This document shows positions 33,152 to 39,621 of a stretch of 64,000 bases of DNA, piece after piece. Under the pieces are notes generated by a model. It made no database searches and was not told the DNA's origin. It saw only the letters and a list, made by a program, of their open reading frames with translations. Source of the DNA: Mycolicibacterium madagascariense (GTDB taxonomy: Bacteria; Actinomycetota; Actinomycetes; Mycobacteriales; Mycobacteriaceae); assembly GCF_010729665.1 (NCBI RefSeq), contig NZ_AP022610.1, forward strand, positions 1,426,001-1,490,000. Direction: 5' to 3'. The position numbers were made by a program, and so were the translations under genes. Within the stretch, counting starts at the first letter, position 1, and each line of letters opens with the position of its first letter.

Positions 33152-33201
33152 CCCGTGTTACGCCGAGGTGACGGCGGTGAGCTCCGCATAACCGAAACGT
33201 A

Positions 33202-33292: not shown

Positions 33293-33814
33293 ATGCCGTT
33301 TGACGAATCGATCGCCGAGAACATCAAGACCTCGGTCGCCGAGATCCCGCATCCCTCGCTGCCGAAGGGATCCACCATCTACGGCGGCACCAAGATCTTC
33401 CCCGACTACCAGGCCGAGGACGGCGAGAGCTACTTCACGCTGGTGCACGGCATCGCGCACGAGTCCTCGGTCAGCTTCGTCGCCGTGCTGCAGGCCACCA
33501 GGGCGCTGCGCAAGGGCTTCGAGTCGGTGCTGTACTTCTACGGCCCGGGTTCCATCAACTGCCTGGCGACGCGCGGATTTCCCAAGACCGGTGACTCCGG
33601 CTTCCCCGGCGAGCAGAACATCAACGACTCCCTCGCGACGTTCATCGGCGAGGGCGGCACGGTGTTCTGCTGCCGCTTCGGCTTGGCGTTGCACGGCGGC
33701 CGCGAGGAGGACCTCATCGAGGGCGTCATCCCCTGCCATCCGCTCGACGTGCAGGACGCGCTCATCTACTTCGCCCGCAAGGGCGCCATCATCAACTCCA
33801 CCTACATGGTCTAG
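33293..33814 (+). CDS. MSMEG_0572/Sll0783-family nitrogen starvation response protein
   Basis: A 173-residue protein of the first Nit1C-cluster family, starting at ATG 33293 (MPFDESIAENIKTS). Family segments include YFTLVHGIAHESSVSF and FYGPGSINCLATRGFPKTGD. It is soluble with no catalytic motif I can name. In Synechocystis the homologue Sll0783 responds to nitrogen starvation and affects polyhydroxybutyrate. It is the first gene of an eight-gene unit and sits 67 bp behind a GlnR-like box. Confidence 0.88.
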   Translation: MPFDESIAENIKTSVAEIPHPSLPKGSTIYGGTKIFPDYQAEDGESYFTLVHGIAHESSVSFVAVLQATRALRKGFESVLYFYGPGSINCLATRGFPKTGDSGFPGEQNINDSLATFIGEGGTVFCCRFGLALHGGREEDLIEGVIPCHPLDVQDALIYFARKGAIINSTYMV

Positions 33815-33817
33815 GTC

Positions 33818-34699
33818 ATGACGAGACTCGCGGCCGTCGCCGCCAACTTCACCCGCGACCTGGAGCAGAACTACGCGCTGATCGAGTCGCTGACCCGGCA
33901 GGCCCGCGACGCGGGCGTCGACTTCATGGTCCTGCCCGAGGCCGCGATCGGCGGCTACCTGTCGTCGCTGGGCAACCACGGTGACACGGTGAAGACGACG
34001 TCGACGTCACTGCCGCCGGCGATCCGCGTCGACGGGCCCGAGATCGCCAGGGTCCAGCAGATCGTCGGCGACCTGTTGATCGCCATCGGTTTCTGCGAGC
34101 TCGACGACGACGGCGAGACGCGCTACAACGCCGCCGCCGTGCTCGACGGGAACCGGGTGTACGGCACCTATCGCAAGGTGCACCAGCCGCTGGGGGAGGG
34201 CATGTCCTACTCACCGGGATCGGCGTACGACGTGTTCGACACGCCCGTCGGGCGCGTGGGTCTGCAGATCTGCTACGACAAGGCCTTCCCCGAGGCCGCG
34301 CGCATCATGGCGCTCAAGGGCGCGCACATCATCGCCAGCCTCTCGGCGTGGCCGGCGGCCCGCACCGCCACCGCCGAGAACCTGCAGGACGACCGGTGGA
34401 CCTACCGGTTCAACCTGTTCGACGCGGCACGCGCGCTGGACAATCAGGTGTTCTGGATCGCCTCCAACCAGAGCGGCACCTTCGGCTCGCTGCGCTACGT
34501 CGGCAACGCCAAGGTCGTCGATCCGGGCGGAAACACCTTGGCGTCAACGCTTCTCGGCAGTGGAATGGCGGTCGCGGAGGTCGACGTCGACGGCACGTTC
34601 CGGGCCATGCGGGCGGGCATGTTCCACCTGCGCGACCGCCGCCCCGACGTGTACGGCCCGGTGACCGAGGCGTGGGGGAGTGACCTCGCCCATGCCTGA
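33818..34699 (+). CDS. Nit1-type nitrilase of the Nit1C cluster
   Basis: A 293-residue carbon-nitrogen hydrolase with the catalytic triad visible: Glu41 (VLPEAAIGGY), Lys120 (TYRKVHQPLGEG) and Cys152 (LQICYDKAFPEA). Nit1C nitrilases hydrolyse nitriles and have been tied to growth on cyanide in Pseudomonas. It follows the first gene by 3 bp and overlaps the next by 8 bp. It is the probable active nitrilase of the cluster; the physiological substrate is unproven. Confidence 0.92.
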   Translation: MTRLAAVAANFTRDLEQNYALIESLTRQARDAGVDFMVLPEAAIGGYLSSLGNHGDTVKTTSTSLPPAIRVDGPEIARVQQIVGDLLIAIGFCELDDDGETRYNAAAVLDGNRVYGTYRKVHQPLGEGMSYSPGSAYDVFDTPVGRVGLQICYDKAFPEAARIMALKGAHIIASLSAWPAARTATAENLQDDRWTYRFNLFDAARALDNQVFWIASNQSGTFGSLRYVGNAKVVDPGGNTLASTLLGSGMAVAEVDVDGTFRAMRAGMFHLRDRRPDVYGPVTEAWGSDLAHA

Positions 34700-34991
34700 G
34701 ATGACGTTCGACGTGCAGTGGCCCGACGGGCGCGTGCAGCGCTGCCATTCGCCGAGTCTGGTGATGCACGACTACCTGAGCACCGGATCGCAGTACACCG
34801 TCACCGAATTCGTCGACCGATGCGGCCGTGCCCTCCAGGAGGCCAGTGATCGGGTCCGGGCGAAGTACGGCTTCGCCTGCAGCTCGGCCGCCTCGACGAG
34901 GCAGGAGATCGTCTCCGCCGCAACGCGATTCGACCCGTCGGCGATGGTGGGCGTGCTGGCGATGCAGCCGGCCCTGGAGGCCTCGTCATGA
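34692..34991 (+). CDS. MSMEG_0570-family nitrogen starvation response protein (small)
   Basis: A 99-residue protein starting MPEMTFDVQWPDG at ATG 34692, a start that overlaps the nitrilase by 8 bp; a GTG at 34680 is an alternative. The conserved core is HSPSLVMHDYL and FVDRCGRALQEASDRVRAKYGFACS. No catalytic motif is recognised. It is a member of the Nit1C cluster; its role is unknown. Confidence 0.86.
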   Translation: MPEMTFDVQWPDGRVQRCHSPSLVMHDYLSTGSQYTVTEFVDRCGRALQEASDRVRAKYGFACSSAASTRQEIVSAATRFDPSAMVGVLAMQPALEASS

Positions 34992-36304
34992 CCGATACCG
35001 AGACGGCCCACGTCACCGTCGCCATCATCGGTGGCGGCCAGGCCGGGCTGTCGGTGAGCTGGTATCTCGGACGGGCGGGCATCGACCACGTCGTCCTCGA
35101 GGCGCACACCCCGGTGCACGCGTGGGCCGACACCCGTTGGGACAACTTCACGTTGGTGACGCCCAACTGGCACTGCAGGCTGCCCGGCTACCACTACGAC
35201 GGGGACGACCCGGACGGCTTCATGACGCGGGACGAGGTCGTCGAGTGGCTGGCCGGGTGGCTGGACACCTTCGACCCGCCGCTGCGCACCCACACCAGGG
35301 TGACGAGGTTGCGACCCCTCCCCGCAGGCGGTTTCGCGCTGACACTGGCGACCGAGACCGGTGAGGAGACGCTGACCTGCGACCACGCGGTCGTCGCCAC
35401 CGGTGGCTATCCCATCCCGGTACTGCCCGCGTTCGCGGGCGCGCTGGATCCGGCCGTCACGCAGCTGCACTCCGAGCAGTACCGCAATGCCGACCAACTG
35501 CCCGACGGCGCCGTCCTGGTGGTGGGCACCGGTCAATCGGGGGCGCAGATCGCCGAGGACCTGCACCTGGCGGGCCGGCAGGTGCACCTCGCGGTCGGCA
35601 GCGCGCCGCGCGTCGCGCGGACCTACCGCGGCCGGGACTGCATGACGTGGCTGGCAGACATGGGTCTCTACGACAAGGCCGTGCCCGAATATCCGGGCGG
35701 CAAGGCGGCGATCGAGAAGACCAACCACTACGTCACCGGCCGCGACGGCGGACGCGACATCGACCTACGTCGCTTCGCCGTCGAGGGCATGCAGCTGTAC
35801 GGCACGCTCACCGACGGCAAGGACACGCGGCTCGCGTTCGCACCGTCCCTGCGCGACGCACTCAATGCGGCTGACGCCGTGTACGACTCGATCTGCGCGG
35901 ACATCGACGCCTTCATCGAACGCGAAGGGCTGCACGCCCCGTCGCCCACCAGGTACGCGCCGGTGTGGGAGCCCGACGCCGAGGTCACCGAACTCGACCT
36001 GACCGCCGCGGGCGTCACCAGCATCGTCTGGGCGATCGGGTACCGGCCCGACTACCGGTGGATCGAGGCCAGTGCCTTCGACGGCGCCGGACGTCCCATG
36101 CAGAACCGCGGCGTCACCGGGGTCGCCGGGCTGACGTTCGTCGGCCTGCCGTGGATGCACACCTGGGGATCGGGCCGGTTCCTCGGCATCGACCGCGACG
36201 CCAGGCACATCAGCGAGACGATCATCGACGATCTCCGCCCGAACGCGCCGGAGCCGTCGGCTCCCCGCGCGAGCGCTCGCCACGGCCTGGCCGTGGCCCG
36301 CTGA
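34988..36304 (+). CDS. MSMEG_0569-family flavin-dependent oxidoreductase
   Basis: A 438-residue flavin monooxygenase-like protein. The first nucleotide fold is VAIIGGGQAGLSVSWYLGRAG and the second VVVGTGQSGAQIAEDL. SIVWAIGYRPDY is the typical late FMO segment. It overlaps the preceding gene by 4 bp (ATGA). It probably oxygenates or dehydrogenates an organic nitrogen intermediate in the Nit1C pathway; this is inference. Confidence 0.9.
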   Translation: MTDTETAHVTVAIIGGGQAGLSVSWYLGRAGIDHVVLEAHTPVHAWADTRWDNFTLVTPNWHCRLPGYHYDGDDPDGFMTRDEVVEWLAGWLDTFDPPLRTHTRVTRLRPLPAGGFALTLATETGEETLTCDHAVVATGGYPIPVLPAFAGALDPAVTQLHSEQYRNADQLPDGAVLVVGTGQSGAQIAEDLHLAGRQVHLAVGSAPRVARTYRGRDCMTWLADMGLYDKAVPEYPGGKAAIEKTNHYVTGRDGGRDIDLRRFAVEGMQLYGTLTDGKDTRLAFAPSLRDALNAADAVYDSICADIDAFIEREGLHAPSPTRYAPVWEPDAEVTELDLTAAGVTSIVWAIGYRPDYRWIEASAFDGAGRPMQNRGVTGVAGLTFVGLPWMHTWGSGRFLGIDRDARHISETIIDDLRPNAPEPSAPRASARHGLAVAR

Positions 36305-36315
36305 GAGGAGCCCTC

Positions 36316-37371
36316 GTGTCCGTCTCGACCCGTGTCGACCTCACCCTCTTGGGAATTCGCGGCCGTCCGCCCGTGAACCGCAGCGCCGGAGCCGGTCCCA
36401 GCGCCGACGGTCACCTGATGATCGACGGCCGGGCCGCCGCCATCCCGTTGAATCCCAAGAGCCCCTTCGTCTTCGACGGCAGCCGCGTGCTACTCGACGG
36501 CGAGGACTCCGGCCTCGACGTCGACGTCATCGACCGGCCGCGGTTCTACGATCTGCAGACCGCAGAGGGCGTCGGCTACGACCGAATCGCGCGCCTGCAC
36601 GGCCGAAACGTGCTCGCCACCACCGTCGTTCAGACGTGCATCCGCTACGGCGTCGAAGAGCGCTGCCGATTCTGCTCGATCGAGGAGTCGCTGCGATCGG
36701 GTGCCACGACCGCCGTCAAGCGACCTGGTGAACTCGCCGAGGTGGCCGAGGCCGCGGTGCGACTCGACGGCGTCGCCAGCATGGTCATGACGACCGGGAC
36801 GTCGGCCGGAAGCGACCGCGGCGCACGACATCTCGCGCGCTGCGTCCGGGCGGTCAAGGCCGTGGTGCCCGACCTGCCCATCCAGGTGCAGTGCGAGCCG
36901 CCCGCCGACCTGTCCGTGCTCACCGAACTGCGCGACGCGGGTGCCGACGCGATCGGCATCCACGTCGAGTCGCTCGACGACGACGTGCGCCGCCGGTGGA
37001 TGCCCGGCAAGGCCACCGTGCCGCTGGCTCGCTACCGCGAGGCGTGGCGGGAGGCGGTGCGGGTCTTCGGCCGCAACCAGGTCTCGACGTACCTCCTGGT
37101 GGGACTCGGCGAGGATCCCGAGGAGCTGGTCGCCGGTGCCGCCGAACTCATCGACCTGGGCGTCTATCCGTTCGTGGTGCCGTTCCGCCCGCACCCCGGC
37201 ACGCTGGCGGTCGACGTCGACGGCGCGACGGCACCCGACGCCGCGACCGTGGAGAAGGTGTCGCGCGAGGTGGCCGCCGCGCTGCGGCGGGCCGGCATGG
37301 CCGGTGCCGACCAGAAGGCGGGCTGTGCGGCGTGCGGTGCCTGCGGCGTGCTGCAAAGCGTCGGCGGCTGA
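36316..37371 (+). CDS. MSMEG_0568-family radical SAM protein with CX8CX2C motif
   Basis: A 351-residue protein starting at GTG 36316 behind GAGAGGAG. The presumed cluster-binding cysteines are Cys108, Cys117 and Cys120 (VQTCIRYGVEERCRFCSIEE), spaced CX8CX2C instead of the usual CX3CX2C. A second Cys set, Cys337, Cys340 and Cys343 (CAACGAC), ends the protein and could hold another iron-sulfur cluster. SAM-fold segments include VQCEPPADLSV and LVGLGEDPEEL. It is part of the Nit1C cluster; the reaction is unknown. Confidence 0.88.
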   Translation: MSVSTRVDLTLLGIRGRPPVNRSAGAGPSADGHLMIDGRAAAIPLNPKSPFVFDGSRVLLDGEDSGLDVDVIDRPRFYDLQTAEGVGYDRIARLHGRNVLATTVVQTCIRYGVEERCRFCSIEESLRSGATTAVKRPGELAEVAEAAVRLDGVASMVMTTGTSAGSDRGARHLARCVRAVKAVVPDLPIQVQCEPPADLSVLTELRDAGADAIGIHVESLDDDVRRRWMPGKATVPLARYREAWREAVRVFGRNQVSTYLLVGLGEDPEELVAGAAELIDLGVYPFVVPFRPHPGTLAVDVDGATAPDAATVEKVSREVAAALRRAGMAGADQKAGCAACGACGVLQSVGG

Positions 37372-37376
37372 CGGGC

Positions 37377-38780
37377 ATGGACGCGCTGTCGATCCTCGCG
37401 GGCACTCGCTCCCACGCCGCGCCCGCAGCGGGCTTCCTGATCCGCCGGGCCGAGAGCGCTGCCGACCTCGCGGCCTACCGGGCGCTGCGGCACGACGAAT
37501 TCGTGCTCGGCCAACACCTCTTCGCGCACTCCGACGCCGACGACGTCGACGACGACCCGCGCACCGTGGTGCTCGTCGCGACCGCTCCGAACGGCACGGT
37601 GCTCGGCGGTGTCCGCCTCGCGCCGAGATGCGATCCCGACCTCGGTTGGTGGACGGGCAGTCGGCTCGTCACCGTCGAGGCGGCCCGGTCGTCGGGCGTC
37701 GGGCCTGCGCTCGTCCGCGCGGCGTGCGCGCACGCGGAGTCCGCGGGCGTGCTGCGCTTCGAGGCCGCCGTGCAGCGCCGGTACGCGCCGATGTTCACGG
37801 CGCTGGGCTGGGAGGACCACGGCGACTGCCCGATCGCGGGTCGGCCGCACGCGCTGATGCGCTGGCCACTGCACCAGATGCAGCGCCTGACCGATGCGAC
37901 CAAGTCGTTCCTCGGCGACGCGCTGGCGCCGCTGCGCGACGTGGCCGGTGGGCTCGGCCCCGCCGGTTTCGTCGGTGACGACGGCGTGCCGCTGCCCGGC
38001 AGCGACGTGATCGCCGCGTGCGATGCGATCATCCCGTCCATGGTGGAGCGCGATCCGGAATGGGCGGGGTGGTGTTCGGTGCTCGTCAACGTCAACGACC
38101 TGACGGCGATGGGCGCCGCGCCGACCGGGCTGCTGGACGCCGTGGGAGCGCCCACCCGTTCGCTGCTGACGCGCATCGTGCGGGGGATCGCGCGGGCGTC
38201 GCAGGCGTGGCGGGTGCCCGTGCTCGGCGGCCACACCCAGCTCGGCGTGCCCGCCTCGCTCGCCGTCACCGCGTTCGGCCGGACGACGCAGCCGATCCGC
38301 GCCGGGGGCGGCGCGGTCGGGGACGCGCTCCGGCTAACGGCCGACCTCACCGGTGGCTGGCGGCCGGGACAGCATGGCAGACAATGGGATTCGAGCAGCG
38401 CCCGCAGCGCCGACGAGCTCGCCCAGCTCGCCACGCTGGTCGCCCGCATGGCGCCGCGCGCCGCCAAGGACGTCAGCATGGCCGGTGTCGTCGGCACCGC
38501 GGGCATGCTCGCCGAGGCCAGCGGGACGGGGGCCGAACTCGACGTGGCGCGCATCCCGCGACCCGCCGACGCCGCGATGGGGGCATGGCTGTCCTGTTTC
38601 CCCGGCTACGCGATGCTCACCGCGGACCGGGTCGGGGCCGTCGCCCCGCCGGCGCCGCCGGGGGTGACCACCGCGGCGTGCGGTCTGCTGAGCGCCGAAC
38701 CCGGGGTGCGGCTGCGGTGGCCCGACGGCGTCGCGACGACGGCGGTGAGCGCGGACGTGACGGGACTGGGCAGGGCCTGA
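37377..38780 (+). CDS. MSMEG_0567/Sll0787-family GNAT-AIR synthase fusion
   Basis: A 467-residue fusion. Residues 15-165 are a GNAT acetyltransferase-like domain (GFLIRRAESAADLAAYRALRH, RLVTVEAARSSGVGPALVRAA). Residues 180-467 resemble AIR synthase/PurM-type ATP-binding enzymes (WCSVLVNVNDLTAMGAAPTG, VLGGHTQLGVPASLAVTAFG, KDVSMAGVVGTAGMLAEASG). In other Nit1C clusters these can be separate genes. It may acylate or activate the pathway intermediate. It follows the radical SAM gene by 5 bp. Confidence 0.87.
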   Translation: MDALSILAGTRSHAAPAAGFLIRRAESAADLAAYRALRHDEFVLGQHLFAHSDADDVDDDPRTVVLVATAPNGTVLGGVRLAPRCDPDLGWWTGSRLVTVEAARSSGVGPALVRAACAHAESAGVLRFEAAVQRRYAPMFTALGWEDHGDCPIAGRPHALMRWPLHQMQRLTDATKSFLGDALAPLRDVAGGLGPAGFVGDDGVPLPGSDVIAACDAIIPSMVERDPEWAGWCSVLVNVNDLTAMGAAPTGLLDAVGAPTRSLLTRIVRGIARASQAWRVPVLGGHTQLGVPASLAVTAFGRTTQPIRAGGGAVGDALRLTADLTGGWRPGQHGRQWDSSSARSADELAQLATLVARMAPRAAKDVSMAGVVGTAGMLAEASGTGAELDVARIPRPADAAMGAWLSCFPGYAMLTADRVGAVAPPAPPGVTTAACGLLSAEPGVRLRWPDGVATTAVSADVTGLGRA

Positions 38781-38781
38781 C

Positions 38782-39621
38782 GTGGGACTCGTCACGATCG
38801 GCGCCGTCGCCGCGCATTTCGGCCGCGACGTGGACCGAGGCGTCAGCAAGGTCGTCGGCATCATCGACGCGGCGGCCCGCGACGACGTCGACCTCCTGGT
38901 GTTCCCCGATGCCTGCCTGGGCGGCTACATCGGCGACCTGCGAGCGCCCGACCCGAACGACCGCCCGCCCGCGCTCGACCCGAACGGCCCGGAGATCGCG
39001 GCCGTCATCGCCGCGGCCGGTCCCATGACGGTGTGCGTCGGCTACGCCGAGGAGTCGGTCGGGGGTCGGTACAACGCCGCGATCTGCGTGACCGGCGACG
39101 GCGTGCTCGGCCACCACCGCAAGGTGCATCAACCGGCGGGAGAGTCGTTGGCGTACTTGGCCGGTGACGCGTTCACCGCCTTCGACACGCCGGTCGGACG
39201 GCTCGGCATGCTCATCGACTACGACAAGACGTTTCCCGAGTCGGCACGGGCGCTGGCCCTCGACGGGGCGGACGTCATCGCGGCGCTCTCGGCGTGGCCG
39301 GCCAGCGTCACCGACCGCGCGTCGCGGCTGCCCGCCGACCGGCAGGCGCGGTTGTTCGACCTCTACGACTGCGCCCGCGCCGCGGAGAACCAGGTGGTCG
39401 TGGTGTCCTCGAATCAGACGGGCGTCATGGGCGCACTGCGCTTCCTCGGGCAGGCCAAGGTCGTCGGCCCCGGTGGCGACGTGCTCGCCAACACCGGGTC
39501 CAAGGGCGGCCTGGCCAAGGTCACCGTCGACGTCGGCGCGGAGATCGCCCGGGCGCGAAAGGTGTTGAACCATCTCGCCGAGCGTCGGGTCGATGCGTAC
39601 CACACCACGGCGGGGAACTGA
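38782..39621 (+). CDS. Nitrilase-fold protein with altered triad (Asp-Lys-Asp)
   Basis: A 279-residue paralogue of the cluster's nitrilase. Aligned to it, the catalytic Glu is Asp43 (VFPDACLGGY), Lys114 is kept (HHRKVHQPAGES) and the nucleophilic Cys is Asp146 (LGMLIDYDKTFPES). The codon is GAC at 39217-39219, so it is not a misread. It should not act as a nitrilase in the normal way. It may bind a ligand, form a heteromer with the active enzyme, or catalyse something else. It starts with GTG one base after the previous stop. Confidence 0.88.
   Translation: MGLVTIGAVAAHFGRDVDRGVSKVVGIIDAAARDDVDLLVFPDACLGGYIGDLRAPDPNDRPPALDPNGPEIAAVIAAAGPMTVCVGYAEESVGGRYNAAICVTGDGVLGHHRKVHQPAGESLAYLAGDAFTAFDTPVGRLGMLIDYDKTFPESARALALDGADVIAALSAWPASVTDRASRLPADRQARLFDLYDCARAAENQVVVVSSNQTGVMGALRFLGQAKVVGPGGDVLANTGSKGGLAKVTVDVGAEIARARKVLNHLAERRVDAYHTTAGN

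Follow-up and report, generated by a model that had tools for sequence, protein, structure and literature searches.

What can a nitrilase homologue do once aspartate occupies the position of its catalytic cysteine? The question is raised by one of two CN hydrolase genes in the window, the 64,000-nucleotide stretch of Mycolicibacterium madagascariense DNA analyzed here. Both belong to a run of eight genes, ordered MSMEG_0572-, 0571-, 0570-, 0569-, 0568-, 0567-, 0566-, and 0565-type, which is organized as follows:

33157..33172, + strand: GlnR-box-like site GTTACGCCGAGGTGAC, upstream of the cluster (pattern match)
33293..33814, + strand: MSMEG_0572-type gene, first of the cluster (reading frame; homologues annotated as MSMEG_0572/Sll0783 family in plasmid locus L001)
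33818..34699, + strand: Cys-type nitrilase paralogue (MSMEG_0571-type) with Glu41, Lys120, Glu127, and Cys152 (open reading frame and alignments)
34680..34991, + strand: MSMEG_0570-type gene (TIGR04042, 121.4 bits, cut-off 79.85)
34988..36304, + strand: MSMEG_0569-type flavin oxidoreductase (TIGR04046, 638.7 bits, cut-off 498.35)
36349..37371, + strand: MSMEG_0568-type radical SAM protein (TIGR04043, 508.8 bits, cut-off 303.7); start uncertain, maybe slightly upstream
37377..38780, + strand: MSMEG_0567-type GNAT/AIR-synthase-like fusion (TIGR04050 and TIGR04045, both above cut-off)
38782..39621, + strand: Asp-type nitrilase homologue (MSMEG_0566-type), open reading frame with a GTG start, 279 aa
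39624..40712, + strand: MSMEG_0565-type glycosyltransferase (TIGR04047, 458.5 bits, cut-off 259.85)

The run contains all eight gene kinds of the gpr cluster of Mycobacterium smegmatis (MSMEG_0565-0572), with the 0572-type gene assigned by frame and homologues, and has the same GlnR setting; judged by gene place, MSMEG_0566 is the orthologue of the Asp-type gene. The sequence GTTAC-N6-GNNAC, which we take to be the GlnR-box motif, occurs twice in the window, and the site at 33157-33172 lies in the gap that separates the cluster from a divergently oriented DNA-glycosylase-like gene. GlnR of M. smegmatis binds upstream of msmeg_0572, and a nitrogen-starvation table gives values of 48.04 for msmeg_0571 and 8.94 for msmeg_0566 (PMC4222082); the values in PMC4617892 are 4.06 and 2.96, respectively. 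The eight genes were named gpr for peroxide resistance, with MSMEG_0566 as a putative aliphatic amidase (PMC6039565), and the available sections of PMC4222082 and PMC6039565 describe it as an aliphatic amidase with no mention of a missing Cys. The window cluster also resembles the Nit1C cluster (Nit6803/NitC) of Proteobacteria and Cyanobacteria (PMC1199592, PMC11049912), sharing the 0572-, radical SAM, GNAT, AIR-synthase-like, 0570-, and flavoprotein genes. However, Nit1C has one TIGR04048 nitrilase, whereas the window cluster codes for two CN hydrolases outside the Nit6803/NitC family, the Asp-type protein scoring 32.4 bits and its paralogue 30.4 bits against a curated cut-off of 502.6.

The original prediction, that Asp replaces the catalytic Cys in the second of these homologues, is borne out by BLASTP, which aligns the two proteins over nearly their full length (44% identity, 123/279 columns) and pairs Cys152 with Asp146, Glu41 with Asp43, and Lys120 with Lys114, exactly as numbered; Glu127 faces Glu121. 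The aligned motifs P[E/D]A, RKVHQP, I[C/D]YDK-FPE, and LSAWPA are common to both, in keeping with the proposal that flanking motifs and fold are retained. The paralogue is the fifth gene upstream of the Asp-type gene, not six genes away. The site residues are coded as follows:

38908..38910, + strand: Asp43 codon, at the place of the catalytic Glu; the residue varies among homologues (Asp, Gly, Gln, His, Asn, once Glu)
39121..39123, + strand: Lys114 codon, the retained catalytic Lys, present in all Asp-type rows aligned
39142..39144, + strand: Glu121 codon, the second acidic site residue; Glu, or Asp in one sub-branch
39217..39219, + strand: Asp146 codon GAC, at the position of the catalytic Cys (alignments and codon reading)

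Enzymes of the nitrilase family work by a thio-acyl mechanism. The Asp-type protein has the alpha-beta-beta-alpha CN_hydrolase fold of the superfamily, with a single domain spanning nearly the whole protein, together with the catalytic Lys and second Glu (Lys114 and Glu121, in 120/120 of the best close homologues), but lacks both the catalytic Cys (Asp146) and the general base Glu (Asp43). With Asp146 instead of Cys, it is a homologue and not a canonical enzyme of the superfamily, and the absence of a thiol and of a fixed general base would exclude the usual thio-acyl hydrolysis. The Cys-type paralogue has an intact Glu-Lys-Glu-Cys set, which is present in 120/120 of its homologues (best 120 of 4684), and is presumably active. 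The genome from which the window comes (5.9 Mb) has eight CN_hydrolase matches, and the Asp-type protein is the sole one without Cys at the aligned place (Cys in 7/8). PH0642-type amidase and N-carbamoylputrescine amidase have the catalytic Cys and are 23 to 27% identical to the Asp protein, and the C146A and C158S entries among them are laboratory mutants. Members of the nitrilase superfamily are described as all sharing an E-K-C-E site (PMC4700190), and among the open-licence papers listed in a literature search none pointed to a superfamily member with Asp in the Cys position.

Loss of both nucleophile and general base with retention of the pocket motifs is consistent with a stand-alone, non-catalytic ligand sensor or regulator (a pseudoenzyme) of the nitrogen-starvation operon, as is GlnR control of the corresponding M. 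smegmatis operon reported in PMC4222082. However, the one CN_hydrolase domain leaves the protein without an effector domain, and the gene is paired with that of a Cys enzyme, such that a sensor role is unlikely.

The substitution is common to many genomes. Close homologues (best 120 of 4487, 80 to 95% identical) have Asp43, Lys114, Glu121, and Asp146 in 120/120 cases, and the closest of them, where a source is named, come from Mycolicibacterium/Mycobacterium or unspecified Actinobacteria. Distant homologues (best 120 of 3996, identified with a query from another class, L086, and 54 to 71% identical to the window protein) have Asp146 and Lys114 in 120/120 cases, with Glu (83) or Asp (37) at residue 121 and Asp (115), His (3), Asn (1), or Glu (1) at residue 43. 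The proposed check, whether Asp is conserved among MSMEG_0566-type proteins, thus finds Asp146 throughout both sets, which are the nearest rows and hence biased to the Asp clade. DNA loci were also picked by similarity, with no filter on residue 146 and with matches of <200 query residues or with internal stops discarded beforehand; of the 256 rows retained (255 after removal of near-identical sequences, plus the window protein, which duplicates L003), 135 have Cys at residue 146 (9 of them far outgroup rows), 120 have Asp, and 1, a fragment, has Gly. All 119 distinct Asp-type genes at these loci have Asp146, and Lys114 is present in every Asp row. Glu is at the residue-43 place in 135/135 Cys rows and 0/120 Asp rows (112 Asp, 7 Gly, 1 Gln), and the changes at positions 146 and 43 therefore go together. 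The Asp-type clade is represented in Actinomycetes and, outside that class, by one genome from elsewhere in the phylum. Retention of Cys by most homologues, which the original prediction took as the sign of a local mutation, is absent from the orthologous clade and is seen in its sister clade, and these alignments confirm that Asp for Cys is kept across many related bacteria and is more than a local mutation.

The same alignments bear on a thiol hydrolase with a relocated nucleophile, either Cys45 or Cys85, for which there is very little probability. Cys85 is present in 119/120 Asp-type rows (the window counted twice), but it is also common to relatives with the normal Cys (14/14 of the f32 lineage, 4/4 free-standing, and 2/2 f94), showing it to be an inherited residue, and it falls in a predicted strand (83-92); it is unlikely to be catalytic. 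Position 45 is Ala (73), Thr (5), or Ser (2) at the best 80 loci of a scan of named genomes, and Cys45 is rejected as a moved nucleophile.

A careful tree of 66 representatives, with columns 43, 45, and 146 left out, groups the 26 Asp-type genes together, set apart from all others by a single branch (ultrafast bootstrap 98, SH-aLRT 94), and a quick tree of 75 sequences with far outgroups agrees (96), although its long outgroup branches carry a warning. Rooting on four Cys-type genes of other classes makes the Cys-type nitrilases coded in the actinobacterial MSMEG_0565-0572 (gpr, Nit1C-like) operon the sister group of the Asp clade, and members of the two clades usually share an operon. On these trees the Asp clade is old and of single origin, and Asp as the ancestral state is rejected because the Cys-type genes from other classes fall outside the two clades altogether. 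A cluster from another class that has only the Cys gene (L089, L093) takes a basal position in the Cys clade; its lineage may have lost the Asp gene, or the cluster may have moved between lineages.

The Asp-type gene is under purifying selection. When the 88 loci that have both genes are compared with one another, identity is higher for the Asp protein than for the Cys protein in 87% of 3828 locus pairs, with mean identities of 79% and 75%, respectively. In the 2748 pairs with limited saturation, the Asp gene has a median dN/dS of 0.23 and the Cys gene one of 0.26 (lower for Asp in 1890/2748 pairs); the loci are related and mostly from the best-80 scan, and these counts are not independent. 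In a ranking of seven cluster proteins by mean distance across 87 loci, the Asp protein comes second in conservation, on a par with the radical SAM protein. A local mutation, sequencing error, or decaying duplicate is rejected, its probability being negligible: Asp is invariant across many genera, Cys to Asp requires two base changes (TGC/TGT to GAC/GAT), dN/dS is below that of the sister, and nothing was found in its favor. The clade (80 named loci and many more) has neither the Cys nor a conserved Glu, but conservation is higher in it than in the Cys-type sister, and the protein seems to be either a selected partner or another kind of enzyme rather than the product of a broken gene.

The Asp- and Cys-type genes are commonly found together. 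In the scan of named genomes, which covers the 80 loci most similar to a Prauserella-type query protein and favors close arrangements, the two genes are adjacent and followed by the 0565 gene in 80/80 loci, with the Cys gene reading in pieces at one of them (L139). In 44/79 measurable pairs, the Asp gene overlaps the end of the Cys gene or begins directly after it, with a 4-base overlap in 33/79, start codons being chosen by a simple rule. Two genes intervene between the pair in Rhodococcus plasmids and four in the window. Of 394 genomes drawn evenly from the class, 49 have matches (E 1e-40), 32 of them two and 17 one; both types are present in 32, the Cys type alone in 16, and the Asp type alone in 1. 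In this draw, residue 146 was read for each of the 33 Asp-type genes and each of the 16 Cys-type genes that occur singly; among the 32 partners in two-match genomes, Cys was read directly in 22, and the other 10 were assigned from their score. The exceptions are of both kinds: G087, a 98% complete genome, has a lone Asp-type gene and neither a Cys paralogue nor a radical SAM gene of the cluster's family, whereas G097 and G285 (complete, single-contig genomes) have most of the cluster and the Cys gene without the Asp gene, as do 14 f32 genomes with much of the cluster, and the Asp gene is likewise missing from L101 and L102, clusters that belong to another class. Pairing is near-constant but not strict.

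Two plasmid loci and one rearranged cluster are of note. Large Rhodococcus plasmids (L001, which is Rhodococcus qingshengii plasmid pLP1, and L002) carry the cluster with both paralogues, and that of L001 is flanked by IS3-family transposase genes. The non-mycobacterial genome G285 codes for a Cys-type protein ∼75% identical to that of the window within a rearranged cluster (L057), for which horizontal transfer is possible.

One-operon pairing, gene overlap, and high conservation favor either a partner subunit or an enzyme of other chemistry without deciding between them. The original list of a pseudo-enzyme, a ligand sensor, a subunit of a mixed nitrilase complex, or new chemistry is supported, with these two the more likely. 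Our tentative preference, at slightly less than an even chance, is that the Asp protein serves the Cys enzyme as a modified partner subunit that does not itself hydrolyze. Both proteins would join as a mixed dimer or higher oligomer in which the Cys subunit cuts the C-N bond, while the Asp subunit would keep a pocket, with Lys, Glu, and Asp in its lining, that may bind substrate, product, or a pathway intermediate, setting specificity or activity. This reading draws on the adjacency in all 80 best-scan loci with overlap or abutment in 44/79 pairs, on the 32 drawn genomes with both genes versus 1 with Asp alone, on persistence of the pair in one operon despite two to four intervening genes (Rhodococcus and the window), and on the greater likeness of the Asp protein in 87% of locus pairs. 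Of six cluster genes, the Cys gene gives the Asp protein its highest partial distance correlation (0.30), a weak signal near the next values (0.23 and 0.22). Ten positions are fixed differently between the two proteins, four of them in a predicted helix (187-203); this is counted in favor of a partner, but the ten may be pocket residues. An obligatory complex is disfavored by the clusters without an Asp gene and by the lone Asp gene of G087, and strict conservation of Asp146 and Lys114 exceeds the needs of a scaffold. A relaxed signature in Cys proteins that have lost the partner was considered as proof and dropped: Trp188 is present in 10/14 and Met262 in 8/14 f32 Cys-type proteins compared with 103/103 other cluster Cys rows, but the relaxation is absent in G097 and G285, and f32 is one lineage.

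Paired paralogues of this type have parallels elsewhere. In type II polyketide synthases, the ketosynthase and chain-length factor are neighboring paralogues, both conserved, in one of which the catalytic Cys is replaced; the fold is unrelated, and the likeness to the Asp-Cys pair is by analogy only. Grass NIT4A and NIT4B are two paralogous nitrilases acting as a mixed complex (PMC6214922, PMC5154151), comparable to the proposed Asp-Cys pair, although these heteromeric nitrilases are eukaryotic and the available portions of both papers mention no Cys-to-Asp change.

The second reading, that the Asp protein is a separate enzyme with Asp146 acting as nucleophile or as acid/base with Lys114 and Glu/Asp121, is possible although less than probable. 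Thiol-free hydrolysis, hydration/dehydration, or decarboxylation of an operon pathway intermediate are examples. Asp146 and Lys114 are present in all Asp-type sequences read, down to about 54% identity, residue 121 is invariably acidic, position 43 drifts as expected with no thiol to deprotonate, conservation is stronger than in the Cys sister, and Asp146 is retained even in the lone gene of G087 (L076, 6342-7205). However, the substrate and reaction are hypothetical, pairing and overlap with the Cys gene exceed the needs of a separate enzyme, and the cluster occurs without the Asp gene in some genomes. A bolder version, somewhat doubtful, is a branch of the nitrilase superfamily re-centered on the invariant Asp-Lys-Glu/Asp that would catalyze a thiol-free step of the nitrogen-starvation pathway beside its Cys sister, either with Asp as the nucleophile or by acid/base catalysis of the lyase or decarboxylase kind. 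The "aliphatic amidase" label in the nitrogen-starvation (gpr) operon becomes doubtful, and the Asp/Cys pair offers a simple two-protein test case for bacterial mixed nitrilase complexes or for new chemistry on the nitrilase fold.

Several cluster variants are also present. A different FAD protein (Pfam DAO/FAD_binding_3; L042, 5519-7117) is in or near clusters missing the MSMEG_0569-type flavoprotein, including all of L042-L055, as well as L060, L098, and L080, and in 14/14 f32 loci without an Asp gene it lies between the Cys gene and the 0565 gene. A tie between Asp-gene loss and this flavoprotein swap is rejected, as L060 and L098 have both the Asp gene and the other FAD protein. Locus L080 (at 8461, genome G047) contains an additional nitrilase copy that is degenerate: Asp takes the place of the Glu, Gly takes that of the Cys, and the alignment lacks the Lys region.

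The Cys-type gene of the window ends with a TGA stop (34697-34699) that is overlapped by the ordinary MSMEG_0570-type gene (TIGR04042; region 34680-34720). It has been proposed that the UGA of MSMEG_0571 is decoded as selenocysteine, reading into the next genes (PMC6039565), but the overlapping MSMEG_0570-type gene would explain frames continuing past the TGA more simply.
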